Source: Pseudomonas syringae
GTDB taxonomy: Bacteria; Pseudomonadota; Gammaproteobacteria; Pseudomonadales; Pseudomonadaceae
NCBI RefSeq assembly: GCF_023278085.1
Contig: NZ_CP066265.1
Coordinates: 4,172,001-4,236,000, forward strand
Direction: 5' to 3'
Length of the DNA: 64,000 nucleotides
Position numbers and translations under genes: made by a program. Positions 14,193 through 52,566 of this stretch are shown one piece after another. Numbering within the stretch: position 1 is the first letter of the stretch; each line of letters starts with the position of its first letter. The notes beneath the pieces are model-generated. The model saw only the letters and a list, made by a program, of their open reading frames with translations. It did no database searches and was not told the DNA's origin.

Positions 14193-14204
14193 GAGGACTG
14201 ACTC

Positions 14205-14873: not shown

Positions 14874-14992
14874 TACGGATTATGCCGGTCGGTTCAGGGT
14901 ATCAGCGTTGAACCGGCCTGCGCGGAACAAGAACAAGACAGAAACGACAGACACCTCGTACAGCCCTAATTGAATGCTTTTGGAGAAACAAA

Positions 14993-16444
14993 ATGATTCC
15001 AGTTATCTTGTCAGGCGGTAGTGGTTCACGACTCTGGCCGCTTTCGCGTAAACAATTCCCTAAACAGTTCCTGGCACTGACCGGCGAGCACACGCTGTTC
15101 CAGCAAACCCTGGAGCGTCTGCTGTTCGAAGGCATGCAGGAGCCTATCGTGGTCTGCAACAAGGACCACCGTTTCATCGTCAACGAGCAACTTGCTGCGC
15201 TGAACCTGGACACCCAGGCCATTCTGATGGAACCGTTTGGTCGCAACACCGCGCCAGCCGTTGCCCTGACCGCCATGAAGCTGGTCAACGAAGGCAACGA
15301 CGGCCTGATGCTGGTGCTGCCTGCCGACCACGTCATCGAAGATCAGAAAGCCCTGCAACGCGCACTGGCTCTGGCCACTGTCGCCGCTGAGCGTGGCGAA
15401 ATGGTGCTGTTCGGTGTGCCTGCCAACAAGCCGGAAACCGGCTATGGCTACATCAAGTCGACCGCCGACGCCCTGCTGCCGGAAGGCGTGAGCCGCGTGT
15501 CGCAATTCGTCGAGAAGCCTGACGAAAAACGCGCCAAGGAATTCGTTGAAGCCGGTGGCTACTACTGGAACAGCGGCATGTTCCTGTTCCGCGCCAGCCG
15601 CTTCCTGGAAGAACTGAAAAAGCACGATCCGGACATCTACGACACCTGCCTGCTGACGCTTGAGCGCAGCGTTCAGGACGGCGACGCCCTGGAAATCGAT
15701 GCCTCAACCTTCGCCTGCTGCCCGGACAACTCCATCGACTACGCGGTCATGGAAAAAACCCAGCGCGCCTGCGTTGTGCCGCTGTCGGCTGGCTGGAGCG
15801 ATGTCGGCTGCTGGTCGTCGCTGTGGGAAGTCAATGCTAAAGATGCCAACGGCAACGTCACCAAAGGCGATGTCGTCATTCAGGACAGCCGCAACTGCAT
15901 GATCCACGGCAACGGCAAACTGGTGTCGGTCATCGGTCTGGACAACATCGTCGTTGTCGAAACCAAAGACGCCATGATGATCGCCCACAAAGACAAGGTT
16001 CAGGGCGTCAAGCAGATGGTCGCCACCCTGAACGAGCGTGGCCGCAGCGAAACCCAGAACCACCTCGAAGTGTATCGTCCGTGGGGTTCTTACGATTCGG
16101 TCGACATGGGCGGCCGCTTCCAGGTCAAGCGCATCTCGGTCAAGCCGGGCGCCTGCCTGTCGCTGCAAATGCACCACCACCGTGCCGAGCACTGGATCGT
16201 GGTATCCGGTACTGCGCAGGTGACCTGCGACGAAAACGTGTTCCTGCTCACCGAGAACCAGTCCACCTACATCCCGATCGCCTCGGTGCATCGCCTGAAA
16301 AACCCGGGCAAGATCCCGTTGGAAATCATCGAAGTGCAATCGGGTAGCTATTTGGGCGAAGACGATATCGAGCGTTTCGAAGATATCTACGGTCGTTCGA
16401 ATGCGCTGGAAGCGGGTGTGAAGACCCAGACTATCGCTCGCTGA
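14993..16444 (+). CDS. algA: Phosphomannose isomerase / GDP-mannose pyrophosphorylase AlgA
   Basis: Bifunctional enzyme making mannose-6-phosphate from fructose-6-phosphate and GDP-mannose from mannose-1-phosphate, the precursor for AlgD. The pyrophosphorylase signature GGSGSRLWPLSR spans residues 8-19, with FVEKP further along. The C-terminal cupin domain of the isomerase contains QMHHHRAEHWIVVSG. The length is 483 residues. The ATG follows GGAGAAAC at good spacing, and the gap after algF is 119 bp. It is the last gene of the operon, followed by a strong terminator. Confidence 0.97.
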   Translation: MIPVILSGGSGSRLWPLSRKQFPKQFLALTGEHTLFQQTLERLLFEGMQEPIVVCNKDHRFIVNEQLAALNLDTQAILMEPFGRNTAPAVALTAMKLVNEGNDGLMLVLPADHVIEDQKALQRALALATVAAERGEMVLFGVPANKPETGYGYIKSTADALLPEGVSRVSQFVEKPDEKRAKEFVEAGGYYWNSGMFLFRASRFLEELKKHDPDIYDTCLLTLERSVQDGDALEIDASTFACCPDNSIDYAVMEKTQRACVVPLSAGWSDVGCWSSLWEVNAKDANGNVTKGDVVIQDSRNCMIHGNGKLVSVIGLDNIVVVETKDAMMIAHKDKVQGVKQMVATLNERGRSETQNHLEVYRPWGSYDSVDMGGRFQVKRISVKPGACLSLQMHHHRAEHWIVVSGTAQVTCDENVFLLTENQSTYIPIASVHRLKNPGKIPLEIIEVQSGSYLGEDDIERFEDIYGRSNALEAGVKTQTIAR

Positions 16445-35283: not shown

Positions 35284-37785
35284 TCACCACCGATACGTAG
35301 CACTTGCCTGCACGGTACGTTGCGAGCCGTACCAGCACCATGAATAGGTGTAGCAGGACGCGACGTACTCCTTGTTGGCCAGGTTGGTGACGTTCAGTGC
35401 CAGGCGCAGGTTGTCCATGCTGTTGCTGATGTTCGGGATGTCGTAATGCACAGCAGCATCGAACAAGGTGTAGCCCGGCACTTTCAGGGTGTTGGCTTCA
35501 TCGCCCCAGCTTGCCCCGACATAACGCGCACCGCCGCCCACGCCAGCCCCCTTCAACTGCCCCTCATGAAACGTGTAATCGACCCATGCCGACGCCGTAT
35601 GGCGTGGAATGGCCGGAGCTGTGGTGCCTTTGGTCGAAACCTCCGGACCCGGTGCGTCGCCGATGATGCCGGACGTTACATTGACCACGTTGTTGGACTT
35701 GGTCACCCGGTTATCCAGATAGGCATAGGCGGCCGTGATGTCCAGGTTGTCATTCAGACTGGCCTTGCCTTCCAGTTCGAAACCACGCGACTGCACTTCA
35801 CCGGTCTGCACCTGACAGACCGCGCCATTACACATATTGCCTTCCGGGTCCTGGGTCAGCACATTGGCACGACGCAAATCGAAAATCGCTGCAGTGATGA
35901 AGCTGTTGCTGCCGGGTGGCTGGTATTTGATGCCAAGTTCGTACTGCGTGCCTTCGGTCGGCTCGAACAGCGAACCGCCCAGCCCTGTGCCGGTTTGTGG
36001 TTCGAAGGATTCGGAATAACTGATGTACGGCGCCAGCCCGTTATCGAACAGGTAAACCAGGCCCAGACGCCCGGTGAACGCTTCGCTGTCGGCAGAAGAC
36101 CGGGTCTTGGCGCGTGAAGTCAGGTCGGTAGAACTGTTGCTGCTCTCGGCCCAGTCGTAACGGCCGCCCATCAACAACACCCATTTGTCCCACTTCAACT
36201 GTTCTTGCAGGTACAAGCCTTTTTGCTGATCGCGCTGCGTGCTGGACTCGGTGTAACCCGGGATCGCCACCGGCGAACCATAGACCGGATTGAAGATATC
36301 CAGCGTTGGCCCAATGCCATAACCGGCTTTGCTATCAGTGCTGGTGTTCTGATAATCGGCCCCCAGCAGCAACGTATGCTGCAGTGGGCCAGTGTCGAAC
36401 CTGGCCTGCATCTGATTATCGAACGTGTACGAATCCAGGTTCACGTCGGTGGCGATGGTGGCGCGTTCCGAGGTGCGATAGTCAGGCTGCAAAGTGCCCC
36501 AGCCGTTATAGATGCTTCGGTAAAGCCCTTCACTGCGCAGGTAGCGGGCGTTCTGGCGGAAGGTCCAGACATCATTCAGGTGGTGTTCGAACAGGTAACC
36601 CACCGCATGGTACTCACGGTCGCTCTTTTCGAAGTCTTTCTCGCCGTCATAAAAGTCAAAGTCGATGTGCCGCCCGGTCGGGCTGTTCACCACTGAACCG
36701 TAGGCAGGCATCGAGCCATAAGACGCGCCTTTGGGATCGCTCTGATAATTGGCCAGCACGGTCAACGACGTATCGTCATCGGGCCGCCAGGTGAATGCCG
36801 AAGCGATTGACTGACGACGGGTTTCGGTGTGTTCGATCTGGCCGTCAGCATCATCGTACAGCCCGGACAGGCGATAGGAATAAACGCCTTGATCATCGAC
36901 AGGGCCGCCGAAATCGAACGTGGTGCGCTTCTTGTTGAAGGTGCCGTAGGTCAGACCGATCTCGTGAAACGGTGTTTCTGTCGGCAACTTGCTGACCATG
37001 TTCACCACGCCGCTGGGGCTGGCCTGGCCGTATAACACTGACGCGGGACCGCGCAGCACTTCCACCCGCTCCAGATCGAACGCATCCTTTTGCGGCGCAG
37101 CGTCGCGGTTGTCGGGCATGCGCAGCCCGTCCAGATACAACGCAGGCGAGAACCCACGGATGCTCAGCATGTCCAGACGCGAAGCCGTAGAGCCGCGCGT
37201 CTCGGGCACCACTGCGGCGCTGTAGCGCAACATCTGGCTAAGATTCTCCGCGCCCTGGGCTTTCATCTGATCCTTGGTCACCACCGAGATCGATTGCGGC
37301 GTCTCGATCAGCGCGGTGTCGGTCTTGGTTGCCGACAACCCGCGCGCGGCCACATAACCGGTCACCGGCCCGGTGGCGGTCTCGAATTGCGCCGCACCAC
37401 TGATGGTGGTGGCCTGCAACTCCATCGAACCCTCGACAGCCTCGGGCGCGGCCTCGATACGATATCGATTGGCCGACAACGCCATGGCCCGCAAACCGCT
37501 GCCGCCCAACAGGCGGGCAATCGCCTCATCGGGGCTGTACTGCCCCTGCAAACCGTTGCTGCGCCTGCCTTGGGTAAGCGCAGGATCGAACGCCAGCGCC
37601 AGGCCTGCCTGTTCCGAAAAGGTGTTGAGCACCTGACTCAAATCACCGGCCGGTATCGAGAAACTGCGCGTCGCATTGACGCCGGCCGCTGGCAGGGAAG
37701 ATTCGGCGGCGTGCGACGGCAGCGCTGCACACGCCATCAGAACGGCAAGTGCCAAGGGGTGCAGCGAACTGGCGGGACGGGGCAT
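35284..37785 (-). CDS. TonB-dependent siderophore receptor with signalling domain (FoxA/FhuA type)
   Basis: An 833-residue outer-membrane receptor starting MPRPASSLHPLALAV at 37785, preceded by AAGGATC; the open frame upstream is not coding. After a signal peptide (ALPSHAAES) comes an STN signalling domain (FSIPAGDLSQVLNTFSEQAG), then plug and barrel. The C-terminal CYTYSWCWYGSQRTVQASAT with a final RW resembles hydroxamate (ferrioxamine, ferrichrome) receptors. The STN domain fits the FecI/FecR-type pair at 38.5-40.1 kb on the same strand. The exact siderophore cannot be told. Confidence 0.88.
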   Translation of the reverse strand: MPRPASSLHPLALAVLMACAALPSHAAESSLPAAGVNATRSFSIPAGDLSQVLNTFSEQAGLALAFDPALTQGRRSNGLQGQYSPDEAIARLLGGSGLRAMALSANRYRIEAAPEAVEGSMELQATTISGAAQFETATGPVTGYVAARGLSATKTDTALIETPQSISVVTKDQMKAQGAENLSQMLRYSAAVVPETRGSTASRLDMLSIRGFSPALYLDGLRMPDNRDAAPQKDAFDLERVEVLRGPASVLYGQASPSGVVNMVSKLPTETPFHEIGLTYGTFNKKRTTFDFGGPVDDQGVYSYRLSGLYDDADGQIEHTETRRQSIASAFTWRPDDDTSLTVLANYQSDPKGASYGSMPAYGSVVNSPTGRHIDFDFYDGEKDFEKSDREYHAVGYLFEHHLNDVWTFRQNARYLRSEGLYRSIYNGWGTLQPDYRTSERATIATDVNLDSYTFDNQMQARFDTGPLQHTLLLGADYQNTSTDSKAGYGIGPTLDIFNPVYGSPVAIPGYTESSTQRDQQKGLYLQEQLKWDKWVLLMGGRYDWAESSNSSTDLTSRAKTRSSADSEAFTGRLGLVYLFDNGLAPYISYSESFEPQTGTGLGGSLFEPTEGTQYELGIKYQPPGSNSFITAAIFDLRRANVLTQDPEGNMCNGAVCQVQTGEVQSRGFELEGKASLNDNLDITAAYAYLDNRVTKSNNVVNVTSGIIGDAPGPEVSTKGTTAPAIPRHTASAWVDYTFHEGQLKGAGVGGGARYVGASWGDEANTLKVPGYTLFDAAVHYDIPNISNSMDNLRLALNVTNLANKEYVASCYTYSWCWYGSQRTVQASATYRW

Positions 37786-38032
37786 GACAGATCCTTGGTA
37801 TAGATTGGGTTTCCTTAGCCTTGACGTATACCTTCGTGAAACAGACAGTGAATGAGATGGATTTACATTCAAATAATCGTCGGTGCTTTTTTGCTGCGAA
37901 ATATTTCTTACATATTGGGGTTGAATTGTCAGGCCATTGCCGCCAACACTGTGAGTGAGCGCAAACGAAATCGATTCCGCAGGGAATCGCACAGTCCAGC
38001 CTCGCACGAGCAAGCCCTAATAAGGATTAACT
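37786..38032. promoter_or_regulatory. Divergent promoter region of the siderophore receptor and the HPF-like gene
   Basis: 247 bp between divergent genes. No clear Fur box was found on the receptor side, which fits activation through the ECF sigma pair rather than direct Fur control. Confidence 0.4.
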
Positions 38033-38464
38033 ATGCAAATCCAGGTCAATAGCGATAATCACATCGAAAGCAGTATCCGACTGGAGGAGTGGGTCCGTAG
38101 CACCGTTGAAAGCACGCTCGAACACTACGACGAAAACCTGACTCGCGTGGAAGTCCATATCCGCGATGAAAACGGCGACAAGCCCGGCCCGCATGACATC
38201 AAATGCCAGATGGAAGCGCGGCCCAAAGGACACCAACCTATTTCTGTTTCCCACAAAGCCGATACGGTCGATCAGGCTGTGGATGGTGCTGCGGTAAAAC
38301 TCGATCACGCTCTCGAGCATCTGTTTGGCAAGCTGCGCGGCAGCAAACGCGGCGCTGCGCCGGCCCTCGCCGAGCAGGACGACGACCCGATCAGCCCGGA
38401 CGCGCTGCTCGAAGAAGAATTTCTGGAAAAAGAGCAGGAGAAAGAAGCCGCTCGGCTGACCTGA
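38033..38464 (+). CDS. HPF/RaiA-family ribosome-associated protein
   Basis: A 143-residue protein. Residues 1-100 follow the HPF/RaiA pattern (MQIQVNSDNHIESSIRLEEW; ARPKGHQPISVSHKADTVDQ), a fold that binds the 30S decoding site in hibernation or stress. The last 35 residues are very acidic (EEEFLEKEQEKEAARLT) and not part of the core fold. It sits between a receptor and its sigma pair on the opposite strand, so it interrupts that system. The ATG follows AAGGATTAACT. It has its own terminator. Confidence 0.82.
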   Translation: MQIQVNSDNHIESSIRLEEWVRSTVESTLEHYDENLTRVEVHIRDENGDKPGPHDIKCQMEARPKGHQPISVSHKADTVDQAVDGAAVKLDHALEHLFGKLRGSKRGAAPALAEQDDDPISPDALLEEEFLEKEQEKEAARLT

Positions 38465-38507
38465 GTTAGCTGACACGTGTGGTAAACAGATACGTTTTGT
38501 AAACAAA

Positions 38508-38536
38508 GGGCGAACCGGAAACGGTTCGCCCTTTTT
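38508..38536 (+). terminator. Rho-independent terminator after the HPF-like gene
   Basis: GGGCGAACCG, a GAAA loop, CGGTTCGCCC, then TTTTT. It lies 43 bp past the stop and just before the convergent anti-sigma gene end. Confidence 0.9.
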
Positions 38537-38549
38537 GCCAAGGGCGCAG

Positions 38550-39512
38550 CTATCGGGCAGCCGGTTCGACGCGCACCAGCAAATCGGTAAATCGCTCGAC
38601 CTTGATCGGCAGGTTATCGGCCAGCGTGGCCAGCGCCGCATCGGTATCATCCAGCCGGAACACGCCAGACACCCGCATCCCCTGCAACGCCTGCGCATCG
38701 AAACGCAGCAGGCCGTGGCGATAACTCGCGAGGGTTTGCAGCACTTCACTCAGCGGCCGGTCATCAACCCTGAGCACGCCACGCGTCCAGTCAGCCGGGT
38801 CCTTGTTGCCCAGTGCGTGCGGCGTCTGCACTCGCCCGTCCTTGAGCAGCGCCTGCTGACCGCTAGCCACTTTCACTACGTCCGCCGTGTTGGCCTGTGC
38901 GGCGATGGCTGACTCCAGCACGCTGACCGTCGTGCCCTCGTCGCCACGCCGCACCACAAAGCGTGTGCCCAGCGCGGTGACTGTGCCCTGATCCGTGCGC
39001 ACCACAAACGGTCGCTGCACATCTTTGGCCACCTCGACCCACAGTTCGCCTTCCAGCAACTCGATGGTCCGCTGCCGTCCATCGAATTTAACATTCAGCG
39101 CAGAGCCACTGTTCAGTTGCACCTGGCTGCCATCGGCGAGGGAAAACTCGCGCCGTTCGCCGACCGCCGTGTGCTGGTCGGCCATCCACACAGGCAAGCG
39201 CTCGGCACTCATCCAGCCGCACATCAGAACACCGATCAAGGCCAGCGCCTGCACTGCACGCGAGTGGGGTTTTGCCCCCGCCGGTGCGAATGTTTGTCGG
39301 AGTGCGGCTCGCGCAGAAGTGTCGGACAATTCGTCAAAACTGCCCCACATAGAGTGCATGCGCGCCAGTGCCACTTCATGTCCGGGGTCTGCCTGCCGCC
39401 AGCGTTCGAAGGCCTCTCTGTCCGTTGGACTGACCGAGTCATCGTGCAGCAAAGCCAGCCACGACGCGGCCTCGCCAATCATCCGTTCGGAGGGTTCGTG
39501 CCTGTCGCTCAT
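38550..39512 (-). CDS. FecR-family anti-sigma regulator
   Basis: A 320-residue regulator. The N-terminal DUF4880-like part includes EAASWLALLHDDSVSPTDRE, followed by a membrane segment near residues 92-105 (ALALIGVLMCGW) and the FecR domain (EFSLADGSQVQLNSGSALNV). The ATG at 39512 (MSDRHEPSE) overlaps the sigma stop as ATGA, which decides this start over the longer frame from 39548. It probably controls the sigma factor before it and the receptor at 35.3-37.8 kb. Confidence 0.9.
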   Translation of the reverse strand: MSDRHEPSERMIGEAASWLALLHDDSVSPTDREAFERWRQADPGHEVALARMHSMWGSFDELSDTSARAALRQTFAPAGAKPHSRAVQALALIGVLMCGWMSAERLPVWMADQHTAVGERREFSLADGSQVQLNSGSALNVKFDGRQRTIELLEGELWVEVAKDVQRPFVVRTDQGTVTALGTRFVVRRGDEGTTVSVLESAIAAQANTADVVKVASGQQALLKDGRVQTPHALGNKDPADWTRGVLRVDDRPLSEVLQTLASYRHGLLRFDAQALQGMRVSGVFRLDDTDAALATLADNLPIKVERFTDLLVRVEPAAR

Positions 39513-40051
39513 GCGAAATGGCCCGAACTGTGCAGTGTCTTGTAGCAATGCACCATGACACTGGCCATGTACTGTTTGACCATGCTGGAGGACACACCCA
39601 AGTGAGTGGCGATTTCGCTGTACGTCAGCCCATCAAGGCGATGGAGCAGAAAAGCCTGGCGTGGTTTCTCGGGCAGGCCTTCGAGCAACCGGGCGATTCG
39701 CTCCAGGATCTGCAATGCGGCATGAATCGCCTCAGGGCCGGGAGCGTCGGTTCCGTCGGCATGCAACGCCAGCGCATCAAGGTAGGCACGCTCGACCTTG
39801 CGCCGCCGCGCACCATCGATCAGCAAGCGAGTTGCGGTGGTCGCCAGGAAAGCGCGCGGTTCCTTGAGATTGGGCGGTTCGGTCAGGGTAAGAATTCGCA
39901 CGAAAGCGTCATGAGCCAGATCAGCCGCGCGCTGCGAGCAGCCGATCTTTTTCCGCAGCCAGTTCTGCAACCACGAGTGATGGTCGCTGTAGAGCTCGGT
40001 CATTTGCTGGCGACGACTGGCGTCGTCATCAACCGCGGAAAAGTCGCGCAT
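39509..40051 (-). CDS. FecI-type ECF sigma factor
   Basis: A 180-residue iron-starvation sigma factor. Region 2 contains DLAHDAFVRILTL and region 4 LTYSEIATHLGVSSSMVKQY. It is translationally coupled to the FecR gene. The paired receptor gene lies beyond the HPF-like gene on the same strand. An upstream Fur-like box suggests iron repression. It is a second, independent copy of the system found at 30.3-35.0 kb. Confidence 0.92.
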   Translation of the reverse strand: MRDFSAVDDDASRRQQMTELYSDHHSWLQNWLRKKIGCSQRAADLAHDAFVRILTLTEPPNLKEPRAFLATTATRLLIDGARRRKVERAYLDALALHADGTDAPGPEAIHAALQILERIARLLEGLPEKPRQAFLLHRLDGLTYSEIATHLGVSSSMVKQYMASVMVHCYKTLHSSGHFA

Positions 40052-42374: not shown

Positions 42375-43042
42375 TTAACCATTCTCATTTATGGCTTGCC
42401 CAGATGACTGCAGTCCTGTTACAACTCTTGGCTGTCGAGGTTCGAATGTATAGTTTCAGCTGAATACCATGTAACGCGACTCCCGATAACCTCTCGCTGT
42501 ACCTCCGCTGCAAACTCGTTACATAGTAAAGTTCCGCACCGTCATAATATCAGCGTCATTTTTTGTGAACCTCTTCTCTTTTAATGTCATTAATCAGGCG
42601 TCAGGATTTTGCTGTAGTGAGTCACTTCACTGCCCCTCATTTTTTGTTTGAACTTTTTGCCATCACGCTGAATTAGAGTATTCATTCCCGCCCTGACAAC
42701 AGCAGACAATAAGCCACCACCCCCCTGAAAGCCTAGTATTCATTGGTCCAAACGCACCCATGAACGCGCAGAGCCGAGCGCCTGACCGTGTTTAAAAATG
42801 AAAGTTCCTAGCAATCCTTACATCGAAAAATACTTAATAAAAAGTTTGGCTTTATTAAAGTGTTCTGCTAATAATTCCAGCAAATCCGGGTAACAAGGCA
42901 TTTTGCTACATCACACTGAAGTGAACATCGAGTATCAACTCCGATCTTTCCCGCCCGAGAAACCCATCAACTCGCAAGCTGTCCGAGCCCATTGCCCGGT
43001 TCAGTTGCTGTGCGGCGCGCTCAACAGCGCGGGAGGAAATAA
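42375..43042 (+). promoter_or_regulatory. Long AT-rich leader of the wecB-nfr exopolysaccharide locus
   Basis: About 670 bp without a coding frame and visibly richer in A/T than its surroundings. TTGGCT (42846-42851), 17 bp, TAATAA (42869-42874, preceded by TGC) is a fair sigma-70 promoter with an extended -10, leaving a leader of about 160 bases. The length suggests complex regulation. Confidence 0.45.
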
Positions 43043-44293
43043 ATGGCTGGTCAGCAACCCAGAATGAAGGTCCTTTCGATTTTCGGCACTCGCCCGGAGG
43101 CTATCAAGATGGCGCCTCTGGTCAGAGCACTGGCCGCAGAGCCGGGTATCGATTCAAGAATCTGCATCACCGGTCAGCATCAGAGCATGCTGCAGCAAGT
43201 GCTGGACATGTTCGAGCTCAAGGCGGATTACAGCCTTGACGTGATGCGTCCAGGGCAGACACTGAATTCTCTGACGGCAGCGCTGTACGCGGCTATCGAT
43301 CCGATCCTGGACGAAATGCAGCCGGACAAGGTTCTGGTGCACGGCGATACCACCTCGGCCATGGTGGCAGCGATGTCGGCGTTTCATCGTCGCATCCCCA
43401 TCGGCCACGTCGAGGCTGGCTTGCGCACCGGTGATATCCGTCAGCCTTGGCCTGAGGAAATGAACCGTCGCTGCATCGATCTGATCTCCGATCATTTGTT
43501 CGCGCCAACCGCCGAGTCGCGGCGCAACGTGCTGGGCGAGCGCCTGCAGGGTATTTCTTTCGTGACGGGCAACACCGTCATTGACGCCTTGCAGCTGACC
43601 GCCCAGCGAATCGATTCGAACCGTCAGTTGTGCCATGCACTGGATCGCCAATTTTCGTTCCTGGTGCCAGACCGCAAAGTGCTGGTGGTGACCGGTCATC
43701 GCCGCGAGAACTTCGGCGACGGCTTCCTGAACATCTGCAAGGCGCTGGGTGAACTCGCGCAGCGTGACGACATACAGATCGTCTACCCGGTACACCTGAA
43801 CCCCAACGTGCTGGGGCCGGTGACCGAACATTTGGGCGACCTGCCCAATGTGCATTTGATCAAACCGCTGGATTACCTGTCGTTCGTGCGCCTGATGCAA
43901 CGCTCCCACGTGATCCTCACCGATTCCGGTGGCGTGCAGGAAGAAGCGCCGTCGCTGGGCAAACCGGTGCTGGTCATGCGCGACGTCACCGAGCGGCCTG
44001 AAGCCGTCGCGGCTGGCACTGTGCGCCTGGTGGGCACCGAACCGGACGCCATCACTCGCGGCGTGAACGCCTTGTTTGACAACGACGAGCTCTGGCAGAA
44101 CGCTGCCCGCGCCGCCAACCCCTACGGTGACGGTAAGGCCAGTGCGCGTATCGTCGATGCGCTGATGGGGCGCCCGGTAAACGAATTTGTCGCTGAAATG
44201 CCGCGTCGTCGCCCGGACCCGGTCGATGTTATGCCTGGCGTCATGCCCGGGCACCTGCAACAACATGCGCAAGTGCGTTCAATGGCCAGTTAA
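43043..44293 (+). CDS. wecB: UDP-N-acetylglucosamine 2-epimerase WecB
   Basis: Non-hydrolysing epimerase making UDP-ManNAc from UDP-GlcNAc in the cytoplasm. Family signatures are clear: IFGTRPEAIKMAPL, HGDTTSAMVAAMSAFHRRIP, GHVEAGLRTGD, PWPEEMNRR, VVTGHRRENFG and LTDSGGVQEEAPSLGKPVL. The 416-residue length is slightly longer than usual because of a C-terminal tail of about 40 residues. The ATG follows GGGAGGAAATAA. It heads the locus with the NfrB-like synthase, which suggests it supplies the sugar for that polymer rather than for a common antigen. Confidence 0.95.
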   Translation: MAGQQPRMKVLSIFGTRPEAIKMAPLVRALAAEPGIDSRICITGQHQSMLQQVLDMFELKADYSLDVMRPGQTLNSLTAALYAAIDPILDEMQPDKVLVHGDTTSAMVAAMSAFHRRIPIGHVEAGLRTGDIRQPWPEEMNRRCIDLISDHLFAPTAESRRNVLGERLQGISFVTGNTVIDALQLTAQRIDSNRQLCHALDRQFSFLVPDRKVLVVTGHRRENFGDGFLNICKALGELAQRDDIQIVYPVHLNPNVLGPVTEHLGDLPNVHLIKPLDYLSFVRLMQRSHVILTDSGGVQEEAPSLGKPVLVMRDVTERPEAVAAGTVRLVGTEPDAITRGVNALFDNDELWQNAARAANPYGDGKASARIVDALMGRPVNEFVAEMPRRRPDPVDVMPGVMPGHLQQHAQVRSMAS

Positions 44294-44456
44294 TACAGCG
44301 AGATGTTCGCGCTACAACCCACAATCGAATCCGCAGCAGACAGTCCGTAGACGTTACGGGCACACGGTTCACGCCCTGTGCCCGTCAGGCCTTTCTCGCG
44401 GACCTGCTGCCTGCTTCAAGACCCAATGGCCTTGAGCCCTTACCGAGACATACCCG

Positions 44457-46673
44457 ATGAAATCTTCCGTTACCGTAAACATGGGCGCGCTGAGCGCCTT
44501 TGCCTGCGGAATGAGCCTGCTGGCTCTGATGCCCACCTTCGCTCTGGCCGCCGACAGTCCCTTGACCCTGGCGATCAACCGGATCACTGCCGACAACCGT
44601 CAGGAGCGAGTGGTCGAGCTGCGGGAACTGGGTATCGATCGCCCGATCATTCTCAGCGCCAGTGATGCGCGCCGGGAGCTGTACCTGCCAGTGCCAGCCA
44701 ATGTGCCACTGACTGACGCGACGCTGAATTTTGACGCCAGTTACCTGAACGGCGAAGCAGGCCGCAACACGCTGCTGCTGTCGCTGGACGGCTATCCGGT
44801 ACGTGCCCTTGGCCTTAACGAAGAACAGGGCAATGCCAGCACGGTACTGGGTGTTGACAAAGCGGCGCGGGAAAGCGGCTCGGTGCGTCTGGGCGTTGCC
44901 TGGTCCTCGGTGATCTCGAAAGTACTCTGTGAAGACGAACGCGCCATCGGCAACGTACTGCGCATTGATCCGCACACCCGGCTGACCTACAGCTATGACG
45001 CCAGCCAGTTGCAGGATGTCGGCGCGGCGTGGACCGCACTGCCCGGCAAACCCGGTCTGCTGGTCGCACCGGGCACCTTGTCCGCTGCCAGCTACGATGC
45101 TGCCTGGCGCCTGGGCGTTGCTCTGGAACGAATCGGCAAGCAGGCCCGTATCCTGCCGTTTCCTGCCGTACAGGACAGCCTTGATCTGAGCAATCTGCGT
45201 ATTCCGGCAGAACTCATGCAGATCCCGGCGTTTGCCAGCCTGAATGGCAAAGGCGTTTACACCCTGCGCGATCAGGCTGAAATCGGTGCCCTGCTGATGC
45301 TCGGCCAGACACCTGCGCTGCAGGCAGACCTGGCCATCAGCGACCCGCAACTGCTCAAGGCCATCGATGACTCGCTCGACGCGCTGCAAGCGCAAGTCCA
45401 GAGTGTCGATGCATCGGCCGCTGGCGCACTGAGCCAATGGCGTGAGCGCCACATCAAAAAGCCGCTTGCCAACAGCGCTGGCGACGACGTCAGCCTGGCG
45501 TTGCTCGGCAATCGCGCCTTGCTGATGATCAAGCCGGAATCGGCGAACAAGGCCATTGGCCTGTTCAGCTCGGCGTGGAACAAACTGGCCCGCAGCCGCC
45601 AATTGACCATCGGCGAAGAAGCGGCCATGCCGCTCAGCGAAGACGGTCGTGTGGCATTGACGCGCCTGGGCGGCAAGCCCGGGACGGTCGACGTGCTGGC
45701 GAAAACCGACTGGACCGCTTCGTTCCCGCTGGGCAGCGTGGCCTATGACGGTCGCGTACCGGTCACCGCCATGATCGATGTGGCGGCCGCACCGGGTGCG
45801 TCAGGCACGCCTCCGGTTGCTACTGTGTTTCTCAACGATTACCTGATCGGTGCGTTGCAGTTGACGGCCGACGGCAAGAAAGAACGCATCGAAGCACGGA
45901 TTCCGCAATACGCTCTGGCGGCGCAGAACACCTTGCGTGTGTCTTTCCAGCGTCAGCCGGTCAGCAACATGTGCCTGGAAACGCCACAGGCGTTCCCGAT
46001 CTCGGTACTGCCGACCAGCCATGTGGTACTGGACAAGGTCAACCCGGACAGCAATTTCTCCGGGATGGCCGCGCGCTTCGCAACCGACACTCAACTGATG
46101 GTGCCTAAGGGCTACCTCGAACGTCCGGCCAGCAGCCTGCCGCAGGTTGTCCGTGTTGCCAGCGCGGCCGGTGTTTCGCCGTTGCGCGCCCAACTCAGCG
46201 TCAGTGACGACGCCAGTGTTGCAGTGACACCGGCCAAGGCGTTTCTGGCCTTCGAGCTGCCGGTCAAGGACGCTGCCGAGTCGGTCAAGGCCGATAACGA
46301 AGGCCATCTGCTGATCAACCACAAAGAACAGACGCTGCTGGATCTCAAGACCCTCAATCACCTGGCCTCCCTGCAAGTGATCGAGGCTGGCAGTCAGCAC
46401 GGTATGGTCTATCGCACACTGGGCGGTCAGGCCCCGGTCTTCGAGCGTCCGTTGCTGCTGGAACGCGGCAATGCAACCCTGCTCGCCGACAGCGGCCCGG
46501 TGGCGACTTTTGACGCCAATGATCCAACCGGCAGCAAGATGATCGAAGAAGAAGAAACCACCGGCATCGAAGCCTGGCGCAAACCGTCGCTGCTGTGGCT
46601 GATTCCGGCCGGTATCGTGCTCTTTCTCATCCTGTTGCTGGCTGGCCGTAACGCCCGTCGCAATCGCTCGTAA
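44457..46673 (+). CDS. BcsB-like periplasmic polysaccharide synthase subunit
   Basis: A 738-residue membrane-anchored periplasmic protein with a signal peptide (LLALMPTFALAAD) and one C-terminal membrane helix (LLWLIPAGIVLFLILLLAG) followed by RNARRNRS. This is the topology of BcsB, the partner of cellulose synthase; segments such as TLNFDASYLNGEAGRNTLLL and YLIGALQL fit its jelly-roll domains. Next to an NfrB-like synthase it may guide a non-cellulose polymer. The gap after wecB is 163 bp; the next gene follows after 12 bp. Function inferred from fold and context. Confidence 0.78.
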   Translation: MKSSVTVNMGALSAFACGMSLLALMPTFALAADSPLTLAINRITADNRQERVVELRELGIDRPIILSASDARRELYLPVPANVPLTDATLNFDASYLNGEAGRNTLLLSLDGYPVRALGLNEEQGNASTVLGVDKAARESGSVRLGVAWSSVISKVLCEDERAIGNVLRIDPHTRLTYSYDASQLQDVGAAWTALPGKPGLLVAPGTLSAASYDAAWRLGVALERIGKQARILPFPAVQDSLDLSNLRIPAELMQIPAFASLNGKGVYTLRDQAEIGALLMLGQTPALQADLAISDPQLLKAIDDSLDALQAQVQSVDASAAGALSQWRERHIKKPLANSAGDDVSLALLGNRALLMIKPESANKAIGLFSSAWNKLARSRQLTIGEEAAMPLSEDGRVALTRLGGKPGTVDVLAKTDWTASFPLGSVAYDGRVPVTAMIDVAAAPGASGTPPVATVFLNDYLIGALQLTADGKKERIEARIPQYALAAQNTLRVSFQRQPVSNMCLETPQAFPISVLPTSHVVLDKVNPDSNFSGMAARFATDTQLMVPKGYLERPASSLPQVVRVASAAGVSPLRAQLSVSDDASVAVTPAKAFLAFELPVKDAAESVKADNEGHLLINHKEQTLLDLKTLNHLASLQVIEAGSQHGMVYRTLGGQAPVFERPLLLERGNATLLADSGPVATFDANDPTGSKMIEEEETTGIEAWRKPSLLWLIPAGIVLFLILLLAGRNARRNRS

Positions 46674-46685
46674 CGGATCGCCGCA

Positions 46686-48806
46686 ATGACGTCGCTTTAT
46701 TGGCCTTACTGGCTGGCCCATTACTACAGCGTGCTGGAAGTCGCGACGATCATTGTCGGGCTGATCATTCTCGTGTCGAGCATCGATGACCTGTTCATCG
46801 ACATCTGGTACTGGTCCAGGCGGCTGTACCGCAAGTTCACCGCCGAACGCCGCTACCGGCCATTGACTGCCGAGCAGTTGATGGCGCGTGATGAGCAGCC
46901 GCTGGCGATCATGGTCCCGGCCTGGCTGGAATACGACGTCATCGCGCCGATGATCGAAAACATGGTGTCGACCCTCGACTATCAGAATTACGTGGTCTTC
47001 GTCGGCACCTACATCAACGACCAGCGCACCATCGATGAAGTGGAGCGCATGCGCCGTCGCTACAAGCAGTTGCACCGTGTAGAGGTGCCGCACAACGGCC
47101 CGACCTGCAAGGCCGACTGCCTGAACTGGGTGATCCAGGCGATCTTTCTGTATGAGAAGACTCATGCCGTACAGTTCGCCGGGACCATCCTGCACGACAG
47201 CGAAGACGTGCTGCACCCGCTTGAGCTGCGCCTGTTCAACTACCTGCTGCCACGCAAGGACATGATCCAGCTACCGGTCGTGTCGCTGGAACGCAACTGG
47301 TACGAATGGGTTGCGGGCACCTACATGGATGAGTTCGCCGAATGGCACGGCAAGGACCTGGTCGTGCGTGAAAGCATGACCGACACCGTGCCGTCGGCCG
47401 GTGTCGGCACCTGTTTTTCGCGGCGTGCCTTGATGGTGCTGGCCGATGAGAACCAGAACCAGCCGTTCAATACCGAAAGCCTGACCGAGGACTACGACGT
47501 CGGCGCACGGCTGGCAAAGTACGGCATGCAGGCGATTTTCGTGCGTTTCCCGGTGCAATTTCGCGTGTTGCGCAAATCCTGGTTCCGCAAGCAGTACGAA
47601 TCCACCCTTGAAATGCCGCTGTGTGTCCGCGAGTTTTTCCCGGACACCTTCCGCACCGCGTTTCGCCAGAAAGCCCGCTGGACGCTGGGTATCGGCCTGC
47701 AAGGCTGGGAACAGATGGGCTGGACCGGCTCGCTGGCAAACCGTTACCTGCTGTTTCGCGACCGCAAGGGTGTGGTGACCTCGTTTATCAGCATCATTGC
47801 CTACCTGATCCTCATCCAGTTGCTGGCACTGATCGTTCTGCGTTCCAGCGGGCTGTGGAATACCAGCTTCCCGACACCGTTTGAAACCACCGGGCTGATT
47901 CAGTACCTGCTGGTGGCCAACGGCATTGCCCTGCTGTGGCGGATAGCTCACCGTTGTTACTTCACCACCGTTCTGTATGGCTGGCAGCATGGCTTGCTGT
48001 CCATACCGCGCATGGTGGTCGGCAACTTCGTCAACTTCATGGCTGCCGCGCGGGCCTGGCGGATGTTTCTGGTGGGCAAGCTGCTCAACCGCAAGCTGGT
48101 CTGGGACAAGACCATGCACGACTTCCCGTCCACCGACCTGGTGGCTGCCGCGCCTCGCCGTCTGGGCAGCGTGCTGTTGTCCTGGCAGGCCATCAACGAC
48201 GAAAAACTCCAGAGCGCACTGGCTGAACAGCAAACCCGTCAGGTGCCGCTGGGCAGGATTTTGCTGAGCCATGGCTGGCTCGACGATGAAACCCTCGCTG
48301 AGGCCATCGCCTTCCAGAATGATCTGCCGCGGGTGTTCGACATCGCCAGCAAACGCGCCGACAGCAGTGTGCTGGCGGATGAGTTCTGCCTGCGCTGGCG
48401 CGTGGTGCCACTGACGATCAATGTTCAGGGGCGCACGGAAATCGCAGTGGCCAGTCCGCTTCCGGAAGAAGGCTTGCAACAGATTACCGAACAGCTTGGC
48501 TCGGAGCCGGTGCAACTGGTCGCGCGTGAAAGCGAGATCGTTGCGCAGTTACGTCAGCTGCAAGCCGTTGGCGGTCAGCCTTTGCCGGCCGCTGCGCCAC
48601 TGCTGGGCGATCTGCTGGTCGAGCAGGGCCTGCTGGACCGCGAGGTGTTCCGCAAGGCCATGCTGGGTTATCGCCCGCATGTGCATGGCCGTATCGGCGA
48701 TTATCTGGTCGACATCGGCGTGCTGCCCAGAGAAACCATCGAAGAGGCTGTGGCCCTTCAGCACAATCAATATCGACCTGCCGATCAAACGGAGCAGCCA
48801 TTATGA
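46686..48806 (+). CDS. NfrB-like glycosyltransferase with c-di-GMP-binding MshEN repeats
   Basis: A 706-residue inner-membrane protein. An N-terminal helix is followed by a family 2 glycosyltransferase domain (IMVPAWLEYDVIAPMIENMV, HDSEDVLHPLELR, LTEDYDVGARL, and QKARWTLGIGLQGWE as the QxxRW box) and further membrane helices (residues 360-430). From about residue 490 come MshEN-type motifs (RLGSVLLSWQAINDEKLQSA, LGRILLSHGWLDDETL), with a second set at the end (LGDLLVEQGLLDREVF). E. coli NfrB has the same design and is switched on by c-di-GMP. The stop overlaps the next start by 4 bp. Confidence 0.9.
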   Translation: MTSLYWPYWLAHYYSVLEVATIIVGLIILVSSIDDLFIDIWYWSRRLYRKFTAERRYRPLTAEQLMARDEQPLAIMVPAWLEYDVIAPMIENMVSTLDYQNYVVFVGTYINDQRTIDEVERMRRRYKQLHRVEVPHNGPTCKADCLNWVIQAIFLYEKTHAVQFAGTILHDSEDVLHPLELRLFNYLLPRKDMIQLPVVSLERNWYEWVAGTYMDEFAEWHGKDLVVRESMTDTVPSAGVGTCFSRRALMVLADENQNQPFNTESLTEDYDVGARLAKYGMQAIFVRFPVQFRVLRKSWFRKQYESTLEMPLCVREFFPDTFRTAFRQKARWTLGIGLQGWEQMGWTGSLANRYLLFRDRKGVVTSFISIIAYLILIQLLALIVLRSSGLWNTSFPTPFETTGLIQYLLVANGIALLWRIAHRCYFTTVLYGWQHGLLSIPRMVVGNFVNFMAAARAWRMFLVGKLLNRKLVWDKTMHDFPSTDLVAAAPRRLGSVLLSWQAINDEKLQSALAEQQTRQVPLGRILLSHGWLDDETLAEAIAFQNDLPRVFDIASKRADSSVLADEFCLRWRVVPLTINVQGRTEIAVASPLPEEGLQQITEQLGSEPVQLVARESEIVAQLRQLQAVGGQPLPAAAPLLGDLLVEQGLLDREVFRKAMLGYRPHVHGRIGDYLVDIGVLPRETIEEAVALQHNQYRPADQTEQPL

Positions 48807-50767
48807 AGCGCCCCTTCATCCTGTCGCTGCTGGTGACTGGCCTGAGTCTCTCTTCGCCGTTCAGCCAGGCAGAAACCCTGCCGTTGCCGTTGACCGGTCC
48901 GGCGTATGCCATCGCCAACGAAGCCTACATGGCCTACAACCGCAAGGATTACGACCTCGCGATCGCCAAGGCGAACGAGGCGCTGCGTCAGCGCGCCGAT
49001 GCCAGCCAGTTGCGCGACCTGATTGCCTTGGCCGAACGCGACAAGTACCGCCGCGATCACCCGCAGCGCGCCTACAAGACGCGTCCGAAACCCGGCTATC
49101 TGGAAGGTAATCAGGCGCTGCGGGCATACGCCCGGCATGACTACAACGGCTCGGCCAGCCACGCCCGCAAAGCGATTGCACAGGCACCGAAAAGTCTGGA
49201 TTACCGCATGATGCTGATCGAGGCACTGCAACGTCAGCAGCGTCTGGACGAAGCGCAGACAGCCATTAACGACGCAGAGCAGGCACTCGGCCCACAGCCG
49301 GTCCTGACGCGCCGTCGGCAGGCGATCCAGGAGCAGGTGGCGGTCGACAAGGCGGCCACTGGCTACAAGGCACTGGCACGCGGCGATAACGAAACCGCCG
49401 TCAGCGAGGCGCGTGACGCTGTCCGCAGTTTCCCGAAACAAATGGCGTACCGAAAACTGCTGGTCAGCGCTTTGATTGCCCAGGGGCAATACGCCGAAGC
49501 ACGCTCTGCGGCCACCGAAGCGCTCGCGCTCAATGGCAACGACGCCACCCTGCTCGTCCAGCGGGGACAAATGCGTCAGCGTCTTGGCGATCAGAACGGT
49601 GCCCGTCAGGACTTTGCCCAGGCCATGGCCGTCGGCAATCTGCCGCTGCGTGAACAGGCATCTTTGTATGCCGCCATGGGCCAGCCGGGCGAGGCGCTGC
49701 AACGTTTGCAGAAAGCCCGCGACGCTGGCGAACTGCAACCGGGTGATGAAGTGCAGATCGCCTACTTCCTGAGCCAGGCAGGCGATGATCAAGGCGCACT
49801 GGACACGTTCAAGCGCGTTGATCGTCAGTCCGGTCTCAAGCCCCGCGAAGTGCAGGATGCCGCCTACAGCGCCATGCGCACCCCGGATGACGCGCAGGCC
49901 ATCGCCTACTTCAAGCGCGTGCTGGATTATCAGCAGACCGGCGATTTGCAGATGCCTGCCCAGCAAGTGTTCGATACCCGCCGCGCGGTCTCCGATCTGT
50001 CCCGCGTCTGGGGCCTGACCAACACCACGACTTATCGCGGCGCCAGCACCAGCAGCGGCCTGAGCGGCGCACCCGGCGGCAGCAATGACAGCGTGCAGAA
50101 CAGCACCGAGGTGTTCTGGCGGCCGTTCGGTTACCGCAATGCGCGCTTCGTCGAGTTGTACGGGCGGGTGACCGACACGCTGTGGAGCAAGAGCGGTGAA
50201 TCCGACACCGGCGCGGACGCCCTGCAAGGCGCGCTCGGCATACGTGCCAAGCCGTTCAGCGAAGTCAACATCATCGGCGCTTTCGAACGCACGTTCCCGC
50301 TGGGCAATTCCAATGCCGACGGCGACTGGCTGGTGCGTCTGGGCTATGGCTCCAGCATTGGCACTGACTTGCGGGTCGACGTGCCAAGCTGGTGGACCTC
50401 ACAGCTGTACGCTGAGGGCGGCCGTTATCTGCAGGACAAGCGTAACTACTTCAACAGCGAATGGCAGGTCGGGCGCAGCTTTCGCCTGGACAGCATCAGC
50501 CCACGGCTGGTGGTATTCCCGCATGTGGTCGCCGCAGTGGACTACGATTCGAAGATGCGCAGCGAGGTCGACAGTCTCGGCCGCAGCAGCACGTCTTCCG
50601 GCAACGCAGGCGGTCTGGGCGTCGGCACGGGTGTGCGCTACTGGTTCCGCGAGGACAGGTACAAGGCGCCGCAGTCATATGTCGATTTCTCTGTGCAGTA
50701 CCGGGAGAAAGTGTTTGGCGATGACCGGGCAGAAGGTGTATTCGCCCGTATGACGTTCTCGTGGTAA
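48803..50767 (+). CDS. NfrA-like outer-membrane protein with TPR repeats
   Basis: A 654-residue protein with a signal peptide (LSLSSPFSQAET), a long TPR-rich periplasmic part (about residues 30-400, for example AYMAYNRKDYDLAIAKANEA), and a C-terminal barrel domain (about 430-654) ending in MTFSW, as in NfrA. NfrA is the outer-membrane partner of NfrB and the receptor for phage N4 in E. coli. It overlaps the NfrB-like gene by 4 bp. It is shorter than E. coli NfrA (about 990 residues), mainly in the repeat part. Probably exports or displays the glycan. Confidence 0.85.
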   Translation: MKRPFILSLLVTGLSLSSPFSQAETLPLPLTGPAYAIANEAYMAYNRKDYDLAIAKANEALRQRADASQLRDLIALAERDKYRRDHPQRAYKTRPKPGYLEGNQALRAYARHDYNGSASHARKAIAQAPKSLDYRMMLIEALQRQQRLDEAQTAINDAEQALGPQPVLTRRRQAIQEQVAVDKAATGYKALARGDNETAVSEARDAVRSFPKQMAYRKLLVSALIAQGQYAEARSAATEALALNGNDATLLVQRGQMRQRLGDQNGARQDFAQAMAVGNLPLREQASLYAAMGQPGEALQRLQKARDAGELQPGDEVQIAYFLSQAGDDQGALDTFKRVDRQSGLKPREVQDAAYSAMRTPDDAQAIAYFKRVLDYQQTGDLQMPAQQVFDTRRAVSDLSRVWGLTNTTTYRGASTSSGLSGAPGGSNDSVQNSTEVFWRPFGYRNARFVELYGRVTDTLWSKSGESDTGADALQGALGIRAKPFSEVNIIGAFERTFPLGNSNADGDWLVRLGYGSSIGTDLRVDVPSWWTSQLYAEGGRYLQDKRNYFNSEWQVGRSFRLDSISPRLVVFPHVVAAVDYDSKMRSEVDSLGRSSTSSGNAGGLGVGTGVRYWFREDRYKAPQSYVDFSVQYREKVFGDDRAEGVFARMTFSW

Positions 50768-50798
50768 TCACCGCACATCAGCCATCCGGGAGTAGTGT

Positions 50799-51671
50799 TT
50801 GAAGGCTTTGCTCGCACTGTTGCGACGCGCGACGCTGATCAAGACGTCGCTGGCTGCGCTTATGATCGGCGTGCTGGGCGTCGGCTCCAGCGAGTTGTAT
50901 CGGATACTGCTGCCCAAAGGGCCGGGTATCGTCGGCATTGTCTGGCAGCCGGATAACGCCACGGTCGGCATCAAGGGTGACTGGGACACACTCGGCGCAC
51001 GGCAACTGCTGGTGCAGTGGACGGCGGTCGACGGGCAGTCCTTCATACCGGGCACCACCCTGCCGAACGTACCTGTCTTGCCGGACTGGACACGGATCGG
51101 CAAAGAGCCGTGGGCCAAGGAAGTGATTCTCGGGCTGGCCGGGCACTTCAGCGAAAACCAGTCGCGGGACAACATCGAGCAACTGGCAACCCTGTCTGCG
51201 CAACTGGCCAACGTGAAAACGCCGCTGAACGTCACTGGCTGGTATTTTCCAGCCGAGGTAGACCCCAGCTGGAGCCGTGCCAAAGAGCTGCCTGCACTGC
51301 TGGCGAAACTGCCGAGGCCGCTGTGGATAAGTGTCTACGACGGCGCCAATATCGGCCCGGCCGCCACAGCTGACTGGCTGAAGACCTGGCTGCCGGATGA
51401 TATCGGGGTGTTCTTTCAGGACGGCGTCGGCGTTTACGCCCGTACCGCGCCGATCGCCCGGACCTACGCTGACGCGCTGCGCAAACGACTGGGCAAAAAC
51501 CGGGTGAGAATCATTGTCGAAGCCTTTCGCCCACAGGCCGGCGGTGGCTTTCGCTCGGCAACCGCCGATGAGTTGCAACCCCAGCTCGACGCTTATGACG
51601 GTTACCCGCTGTACCTGTTCGACGGCCCGCACTACGTAACGCCAGAACTGGTAGACGCACTAAACAAGTAG
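50799..51671 (+). CDS. Putative glycoside-hydrolase-like (TIM-barrel) protein at the position of YbcH
   Basis: A 290-residue protein with an N-terminal membrane anchor or signal (residues 13-30). The rest reads as an alpha/beta barrel with acidic residues on strand ends: GWYFPAEVDPSW, DIGVFFQDGVG and RIIVEAFRP, resembling DUF4434-type hydrolase-like proteins. It follows the NfrA-like gene by 31 bp, as ybcH follows nfrA in E. coli, and has similar size. It may trim or process the polymer in the periplasm. Hydrolase activity is inference. Confidence 0.65.
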   Translation: MKALLALLRRATLIKTSLAALMIGVLGVGSSELYRILLPKGPGIVGIVWQPDNATVGIKGDWDTLGARQLLVQWTAVDGQSFIPGTTLPNVPVLPDWTRIGKEPWAKEVILGLAGHFSENQSRDNIEQLATLSAQLANVKTPLNVTGWYFPAEVDPSWSRAKELPALLAKLPRPLWISVYDGANIGPAATADWLKTWLPDDIGVFFQDGVGVYARTAPIARTYADALRKRLGKNRVRIIVEAFRPQAGGGFRSATADELQPQLDAYDGYPLYLFDGPHYVTPELVDALNK

Positions 51672-51762
51672 CAACAGGCTGCGCTGGACGAAAGCCCTGC
51701 GCAGGGCTACAAAGAGTCTTCGTACTGGATGCCTGAAACTGTAAGGCCCACGGAGCTTGTCG

Positions 51763-52566
51763 ATGACGCCACGTCAGCATTGCCTGGCCTGCCTGCAACA
51801 TACGCCGCCCTCGGTGTTTGAAGCCGCGCTATGGGTTTCGGCAGAGCATGACGCGCAGTTTTCACGCCAGGACATGATGGCTGAGTTGGATCAGTTGCAA
51901 CGCCAGATAGACGCCGCCCTGCCGGTCCTGCCCGCCTCCGAACTTGCCCAACCGATGTTGCGTCAACTCAGCGCGCTGGGTTTTCAGCAGGATGACTGGA
52001 ACCCTCCCAAACCTGACGCGGCACTGCTGCACAAGATCATCCAGCGCCGTAGGGGCCAGCCGCTGGGGCTGGCACTTATTGCACTGGAAATCGCCAGGCG
52101 GCTGAACATCGCGCTGGAGGGCGTCAACTTCCCGGGCCACTTTCTGCTGCGCGTGCCAGGCGCCGACCATCTGCTCGACCCCTGCGGCGGTCGCAGGCTA
52201 TACCCCAAAGATTGCCGTGAACTGCTGCTCCGCCAATTCGGACCAGGCATGCAACTGCGCGCCGAACACATGGCGTCGGCGACACCTGCGAGCATGGTGC
52301 AACGGTTGTCACGCAACCTCCGGCACCTGCATCAGATCAATGACAACTTTATCGCTGCGCTCAAGGACGCCGACCGGATCGTCGAAATGGGTCAGGCCAT
52401 CAGCAGCGATTACCTGGCCCGCGCGACGCTGTATCAGATGCTTGAATGCCCGCAGGCCGAACGCTTCGACCTGGAACACGCGCTGTTGCTCAGTGAAGAC
52501 CCTATACAACGCATCAGGCTGACTGAACGCCTGAGCCAGTTGCCGTCACATCGTACCGTGCATTGA
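51763..52566 (+). CDS. SirB1-like transglutaminase-fold/TPR protein
   Basis: A 267-residue cytoplasmic protein of the SirB1 family: LLHKIIQRRRGQPLGLALIA, GVNFPGHFLLRV and LDPCGGRRLYPKD are typical. The C-terminal part is helical (YLARATLYQML; FDLEHALLL) and TPR-like. The catalytic cysteine of true transglutaminases is not evident, so it may be non-enzymatic. Function unknown. The ATG at 51763 follows CGGAGC; the TTG at 51757 is less likely. Confidence 0.78.
   Translation: MTPRQHCLACLQHTPPSVFEAALWVSAEHDAQFSRQDMMAELDQLQRQIDAALPVLPASELAQPMLRQLSALGFQQDDWNPPKPDAALLHKIIQRRRGQPLGLALIALEIARRLNIALEGVNFPGHFLLRVPGADHLLDPCGGRRLYPKDCRELLLRQFGPGMQLRAEHMASATPASMVQRLSRNLRHLHQINDNFIAALKDADRIVEMGQAISSDYLARATLYQMLECPQAERFDLEHALLLSEDPIQRIRLTERLSQLPSHRTVH

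Follow-up and report, generated by a model that had tools for sequence, protein, structure and literature searches.

We analyzed 64,000 nucleotides of a Pseudomonas syringae genome (assembly GCF_023278085.1, contig NZ_CP066265.1, positions 4,172,001 to 4,236,000 of the forward strand; the whole stretch is called the window below). Five open reading frames (ORFs), all on the + strand at 43043-51671, encode WecB, a BcsB-like subunit, NfrB, NfrA and a YbcH homologue. We concluded that this block is most probably a BcsB-containing exopolysaccharide locus of the NGR type, i.e., related to the pathway of the phage N4 receptor in Escherichia coli, which builds and exports a surface polymer bound by phages. 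The evidence consists of homology, protein folds, motifs, synteny, co-inheritance and a tail-protein module found in phages with P. syringae as their recorded host. We found no study of this exopolysaccharide locus of the P. syringae group. The analysis ties it to a receptor shown genetically in E. coli and Acinetobacter baumannii, and specific P. syringae phages can be named as candidates for the receptor question.

The first gene, wecB (43043-44293, 416 aa), encodes a non-hydrolysing UDP-GlcNAc 2-epimerase, which makes UDP-ManNAc. It scored 464 bits against TIGR00236 (cut-off 210) and is the sole match in the genome at E ≤ 0.001, so the linked wecB is also the only copy found. NfrB (46686-48806, 706 aa), a processive synthase of glycosyltransferase family 2 (GT2) with a C-terminal MshEN domain for cyclic di-GMP (c-di-GMP), is likewise the only copy at this threshold. 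Its best family was NF012033 (1227 bits); the score against NF008411, "c-di-GMP-activated glycosyltransferase NfrB", was 663 bits, below the cut-off of 1170. MshEN was recognized as PF05157 and by NF053729 (76.5 bits). The DED-type acids, QxxRW box and MshEN motifs announced for the synthase were located as HDSEDV at residue 170, TEDYD at 267, QKARW at 328 and a tandem c-di-GMP motif from 492. Profile counts found the tandem motif in 116/116 BcsB-type NfrB rows, and the three GT2 motifs (DxD/TED/QxxRW) were also present in 116/116, some genomes being counted twice; MshEN counts made with a pattern were discarded because the pattern was too strict. No BcsA model was among the nine NCBIfam matches of NfrB, which was therefore not assigned to the BcsA family. 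In three Pseudomonas loci (L096, L097 and L098) NfrB has 568-577 aa and most of the part following the tandem motif is missing; no YbcH was found nearby, and two AlgX-like genes and an MBOAT gene were present. The idea that these three NfrBs do not bind c-di-GMP was rejected, since all of them keep the tandem motif.

The bcsB-like gene (44457-46673) encodes an inner-membrane/periplasmic subunit of 738 aa with periplasmic domains between two segments identified by hydropathy, an N-terminal, signal-like one (residues 7-25) and a C-terminal transmembrane helix (712-730). Pfam BcsB (PF03170) matched at 35.7 bits (cut-off 21) over residues 50-186 only. The family profile had no match among Protein Data Bank (PDB) sequences, and profile-profile comparison with the cellulose-type BcsB of the same genome aligned 154 N-terminal columns only, at a probability of 81%. 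The identity was settled by fold comparison: BcsB entries topped both result lists and the BcsB fold spans the ectodomain, so the earlier note's proviso, that the protein might align only with unrelated folds, did not apply. The C-terminal hydrophobic segment was kept in 45/45 BcsB-like proteins (hydropathy), and those of Achromobacter are about 45% identical to the window protein. Many relatives are named "cellulose biosynthesis cyclic di-GMP-binding regulatory protein BcsB" in databases, yet profile searches of the genome (5.6 Mb, 2 contigs; one NfrB, one WecB, two BcsB) detected a separate cellulose-type BcsB (full-length Pfam match, 757 bits) ∼160 kb from the locus; BcsB alone is no marker of cellulose. 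An AlgF-like match (40 bits) near that second BcsB (G000:C1:4373438-4381862) may mean acetylated cellulose.

NfrA (48803-50767, 654 aa, a short form) contains a tetratricopeptide repeat (TPR) region, with TPR families above their cut-offs, and the outer-membrane beta-barrel NfrA_C (PF13283, 246 bits). The fifth gene (50799-51671, TTG start) encodes a glycosidase-like, membrane-anchored periplasmic TIM barrel of 290 aa. It scored 29.5 bits against DUF4434 (PF14488, cut-off 30) and matched NF007404/PRK09936 at E 1e-11 (45 bits, under the cut-off of 344). A second comparison with YbcH gave E 5e-7, and the invariant acids are those of E. coli YbcH; the protein also resembles the PgaB C-terminal domain. 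Against PDB sequences the YbcH profile had one chance-level match only.

ORFs and family matches thus agree with the five identities proposed in the earlier note, and the NGR kinship is borne out by matches to the NfrB, NfrA, YbcH and WecB families. Two details needed correction. The fifth gene had been named for its position only, which is right but understated, since it is a real YbcH homologue. The "overlaps at the core" apply to nfrB/nfrA (4 bp); wecB-bcsB, bcsB-nfrB and nfrA-ybcH are separated by 163, 12 and 31 bp. Identities, kinship and motifs of that interpretation therefore stand, and its novelty was overstated, as discussed below.

From these families we infer the following route. 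WecB would convert UDP-GlcNAc to UDP-ManNAc, the presumed substrate, and NfrB would polymerise the sugar and push the chain across the inner membrane when c-di-GMP is bound to MshEN; E. coli NfrB binds c-di-GMP (PMC8669469), and activation would proceed likewise in P. syringae. The BcsB-like subunit, anchored beside NfrB by its C-terminal helix, would form a periplasmic exit path guiding the chain, much like BcsB in cellulose synthase. Trimming or other handling of the chain in the periplasm is the probable task of the YbcH homologue, whose anchored TIM barrel has conserved acids; NfrA, with its TPR region and beta-barrel, would carry the chain across the outer membrane. Phages whose tail proteins are of the N4 gp64/gp65 type could then bind polymer and NfrA.

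We examined the locus across Pseudomonas. NfrB scored above the family cut-off in 57/199 genomes, and 58 loci were annotated (57 fetched, up to 20 kb each, and the window's own). Neighbours were counted on the same strand within 9 kb, GGDEF genes with a profile built in this analysis, which Pfam bore out for three linked proteins. The 29 loci with BcsB included WecB in 28, YbcH in 25 and GGDEF in none, whereas the 29 loci without BcsB had WecB in 23, YbcH in 29 and GGDEF in 25. Among the four BcsB-free loci that lack GGDEF, L044 ends at a contig border. In one BcsB-bearing locus (L071), which lies on a short contig devoid of NfrA, the ORFs are broken; it was left out of the NfrB tree. In some BcsB-type loci (e.g., L083, L085 and L086) a GGDEF-patterned gene lies nearby on the opposite strand and was not counted.

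In the tree of 65 NfrBs, a supported group united the 28 BcsB-bearing Pseudomonas rows and one row from Stenotrophomonas; the other group comprised 29 Pseudomonas rows without BcsB and E. coli. The synteny survey suggested by the earlier note thus placed BcsB beside nfrB in 28/28 Pseudomonas rows of the window's clade, and for this reason the gene order of the block is not a matter of chance. The BcsB/GGDEF contrast is striking, but within Pseudomonas either state corresponds to essentially one clade, and a single evolutionary event may account for it. BcsB was also found next to the very divergent NfrB of L104, and both kinds of locus coexist in one genome (G393). A GGDEF gene linked "in most pseudomonads" and a linked wecB in Pseudomonas have been reported (Junkermeier 2021, PMC8669469); no description of the BcsB-bearing loci of Pseudomonas was found in the literature searched. 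The split raises the question of what BcsB does for NfrB that the BcsB-free cousins manage without.

Co-inheritance was estimated from 75 loci, obtained by dereplication of the 103 that have WecB and a BcsB scoring over 600 bits. Pairwise distances correlated with r 0.98 for NfrB-BcsB, 0.83 for NfrB-WecB and 0.80 for BcsB-WecB, and 0/2000 permutations were as high in each case. Shared ancestry raises all three values; that NfrB-BcsB exceeds the other two is indirect evidence suggesting that these proteins work as a pair. The bcsB-nfrB gap in Pseudomonas has a median of 13 bp. Five fetched loci (L071, L134, L148 and L099/L120, one genome being present twice) carry a bcsB-like gene broken into two ORFs, which could result from decay under phage pressure or from sequencing errors.

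For a wider view, we annotated the 80 top-ranking relatives among 580 confirmed ones. The ranking was by similarity to an NfrB of Stenotrophomonas, so this sample favours the window's clade. BcsB was near nfrB in 78/80, and in 54/56 outside Pseudomonas by record titles, the genera including Stenotrophomonas, Xanthomonas, Paraburkholderia, Caballeronia, Herbaspirillum, Ralstonia and Microvirga; a same-strand GGDEF gene within 9 kb was found in 3/80. Non-Pseudomonas BcsB loci also carry NfrA of about 940 aa or more, and the proposal that BcsB took the place of part of a long NfrA was rejected on this ground. The distance from NfrB stop to NfrA stop in Pseudomonas corresponds to 601-942 aa with BcsB and 841-1061 aa without (841 being a split nfrA; two genomes of a sister genus are included and some genomes appear twice). 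Because long NfrA occurs beside BcsB outside Pseudomonas, NfrA length is no general stand-in for BcsB.

NfrA length in the 29 BcsB-type Pseudomonas loci was associated with an AlgX-like gene, present in 12/13 loci with NfrA of 847-860 aa and 3/3 with 924-942 aa vs. 0/12 with short NfrA (602-667 aa). The window locus is of the short, AlgX-free form. In the NfrB tree short and long forms are interleaved, L090 and L095 being sisters for example; the association has therefore changed at least twice. In L080, AlgF-like and AlgX-like genes (Pfam) lie between nfrA and ybcH; counts of AlgF were discarded because the iterated profile also matched YbcH. Acetyltransferase genes in such loci were reported previously for Simplicispira (Junkermeier 2021, PMC8669469) and Achromobacter xylosoxidans (Sellner 2021, PMC8669472).

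We next consider the phages. In N4, gp65 is the protein that engages NfrA, and gp66 presumably binds the glycan (PMC12892993); infection of E. coli by N4 needs wecB and not wecA (PMC8669472). We searched gp65 and gp64 against 50,697 phage records. Gp65 matched 118 records, 36 of them over at least 80% of its length. These matches included E. coli N4 relatives, Achromobacter N4-like phages (54-56%; phiAxp-2, 43%), Delftia phage RG-2014 (47%) and Pseudomonas phages inbricus (recorded on P. syringae pv. avii; 54% over 100% of the length) and Arace01 (44%). Gp64 matched 322 records, 22 named Pseudomonas: 17 with P. syringae as host, 2 with P. taiwanensis and 3 with "Pseudomonas sp.", a sum that takes equal totals of separate gp64 searches as one set. 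None of the 22 was labelled P. aeruginosa (phage-record totals per host were not counted). The 17 P. syringae records represent 11 distinct phages: inbricus, uligo, Njord, Nerthus, Achelous and Alpheus (two records each), Arace01, Pavpe01, BUCT553, Ulitu01 and Ulina01. Inbricus belongs to Schitoviridae and uligo to Autographiviridae, and the P. syringae records with the module range from 44 to 77 kb; the tail module is thus common to different phage groups. The A. baumannii phages EAb13 and TCUP2199 also match gp64 (33%). Both are related to StAb3, which depends on the A. baumannii PGR locus, and the host range of EAb13 was reported to track intact PGR loci. The shared gp64 domain is Pfam "TIM-barrel_NCTSP"; "deacetylase" is the wording of the record of phage AlfredRasser and of Sellner 2021 (PMC8669472) and no result of ours.

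Around gp64-gp65, phage inbricus and Axy13 (MK962632, recorded on A. xylosoxidans) share 99.7% identity across 10,179 bases, with gp64 at 100%. Provided that both hosts are labelled correctly, the host range of a single phage species spans two genera, which the older taxonomy places in different classes; the identity could also stem from a wrong label. Inbricus is not named in the main text of Sellner 2021 (PMC8669472), and our literature search found no publication on it.

A number of observations weigh against the conclusion that the block makes and exports a phage-bound polymer with the help of BcsB. NfrA shares 22% identity with E. coli NfrA (E 1e-8) over 359 columns only. The annotated E. 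coli K-12 nfrBA-ybcH operon has no bcsB, as the earlier note had stated, and two Collimonas loci (L188 and L192) inside the BcsB clade have none either, with a wecB-nfrB spacing of only 44 and 27 bp. Given these cases, BcsB is not universally needed; the absence in Collimonas is a natural loss and offers a test of the purpose of BcsB. The proportion with BcsB fell in samples that were not selected for similarity. A class sample of 369 genomes contained 8 with NfrB at E ≤ 1e-60, 4 above the cut-off, and BcsB was present in 2/7 of the NfrB loci other than the window's (L099 and L104); a further sample gave 8/13. NfrB occurred in 4/38 genomes of the "relatives" sample, the window's included. The pathway therefore has a patchy distribution, in which the BcsB type is common but only one of several architectures. 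Phage hosts were taken from record labels only, and these labels also name Campylobacter, Aeromonas and Klebsiella for some phages with gp64 relatives. The literature searched contained no experiment on the locus and no polymer structure.

The phage-related points favor the alternative that survives best, although we consider it rather unlikely: an NGR-type polymer is made, but the P. syringae phages with gp64/gp65-like proteins use another receptor and the module merely tracks phage ancestry. This alternative concerns the receptor role only and is compatible with the model above for the rest. The N4-like P. aeruginosa phage DEV uses lipopolysaccharide and LptD (PMC12892993), host labels in phage records can be wrong, and no mutant-based phage test was found in the literature. 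On the other side, shared ancestry does not readily fit a module that occurs in P. syringae phages of genome types as unlike as inbricus and uligo and also in A. baumannii phages of the PGR-dependent group.

That the locus makes another polymer (e.g., glucose- or GlcNAc-based) on an NfrB/Bcs-like chassis, with WecB serving O-antigen or capsule, is considerably less probable. NfrB does match GT2 families common to many synthases, the sole WecB of the genome could serve other pathways too, and the BcsB-like protein has the fold of a cellulose-synthase subunit. However, cellulose-type BcsB is encoded separately in this genome, wecB adjoins the block in most loci of both kinds in Pseudomonas, and wecB mutations stop phage infection in E. 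coli (PMC8669472) and A. baumannii (PMC12507263). An accessory or vestigial BcsB-like subunit with no part in synthesis or export, for which one could cite E. coli, the Collimonas losses and the split genes, is highly improbable given BcsB in every Pseudomonas row of the clade, distances that track NfrB, the preserved fold and transmembrane segment, and the loss of phage adsorption upon deletion of the A. baumannii homologue (PMC12507263).

NfrB with a neighbouring BcsB was also found in beta-, alpha- and other gammaproteobacteria. We tentatively propose, as a possibility somewhat short of even, that Proteobacteria make a single surface glycan with either of two machines, NfrB assisted by BcsB or NfrB without BcsB, the latter with a dedicated GGDEF protein in Pseudomonas. 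The polymers would be alike enough for one gp64/gp65-type module to serve across genera, even between gamma- and betaproteobacteria, and the P. syringae locus would be a common receptor of several unrelated phage groups.

The closest named proteins of the block come from the P. syringae group, and ∼200 bp 5′ of wecB (in 42780-43042) are conserved across this group. A leader element at 42834-42900 (+) consists of an AT-rich gapped palindrome (42834-42858) and CCGGGTAACAAGGC (42886-42899), both visible in an alignment of 10 P. syringae-group upstream regions; judged by the alignment, it is a possible candidate for a regulatory site. The CGGGTAACAA/GGGTAACAAG string occurred in 10/52 BcsB-type Pseudomonas upstream regions vs. 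0/23 E. coli-type ones, and the palindrome pattern in 4/52 of the BcsB-type regions (some genomes twice in both counts). Rfam had no match at the gathering cut-off in the region upstream of wecB. Among the wecB upstream regions of 101 loci, FliA, AlgU and ops patterns had 0 matches each. A strict version of the RpoN pattern matched once; the 36 RpoN-like and 33 AmrZ-like matches of looser patterns are uninformative because no chance control was made. Closely 3′ of the locus, as in other P. syringae-group loci, lies a SirB1-like transglutaminase-core/TPR gene (51757-52566). An alginate biosynthesis operon (30-16444, +) encodes a nucleotide-sugar dehydrogenase, AlgK, AlgG, alginate lyase and GMP/PMI, with a DltB-like protein at the expected place of AlgI; the window thus holds two exopolysaccharide loci. 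The remaining features are an RHS-repeat protein (16570-19362, -) within a low-GC stretch and an extracytoplasmic function sigma factor/FecR/TonB-receptor set (35284-40051, -).

Compared with E. coli K-12 nfrBA-ybcH and wecB, the window locus shares the synthase family with MshEN, the NfrA_C barrel, WecB and the acids of YbcH. It differs in that E. coli wecB sits in the enterobacterial common antigen operon (PMC8669472), NfrA has 990 aa in E. coli vs. 654 aa, and the two NfrBs belong to different deep clades. The Pseudomonas wecB-nfrB-nfrA-ybcH-GGDEF loci (Junkermeier 2021) represent the same pathway in the same genus, but they lack BcsB, have the GGDEF gene downstream (in the 25 loci counted above), an NfrB of mostly 724 aa in a separate clade, and an NfrA of about 1000 aa. 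Cellulose synthase BcsA-BcsB has in common with the window locus the BcsB fold and the C-terminal transmembrane segment, its cellulose-type BcsB being encoded elsewhere in this genome. BcsA, like NfrB, is a GT2 synthase under c-di-GMP control; it carries PilZ, and NfrB instead MshEN.

The closest precedents are two. In A. xylosoxidans, nfrA, nfrB, wecB and a BcsB homologue are clustered (Sellner 2021, PMC8669472), the same four components by the text of that paper; O-acetyltransferase genes described there were not found in the window locus, and the likeness in sequence was judged here only via BcsB-like proteins of other Achromobacter. The A. baumannii PGR locus (pgrA-pgrG), described in 2025, encodes NfrB-like PgrC, BcsB-like PgrD, PgrE resembling the PgaB C-terminus, WecB-like PgrF and outer-membrane PgrG (PMC12507263), a set of parts also present in the window locus, going on the PGR side by the description. 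PgrA is diguanylate-cyclase-like and has no GGDEF motif; no same-strand GGDEF gene was found near the window locus. A search for a PgrD-orthologous locus in 194 genomes of the order, a sample not known to include Acinetobacter, gave a match only in the window's own genome. Phage adsorption requires the PGR BcsB homologue, and mutating the wecB homologue confers phage resistance (PMC12507263). The joining of BcsB with NfrA, NfrB and WecB (PMC8669472), a linked wecB in Pseudomonas (PMC8669469) and the requirement for the BcsB homologue (PMC12507263) thus precede the novelty claimed in the earlier note, of which the absence of BcsB from the E. coli operon holds. What the present analysis adds is structural support for BcsB, the picture of two lineages in Pseudomonas and the P. 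syringae phage candidates.

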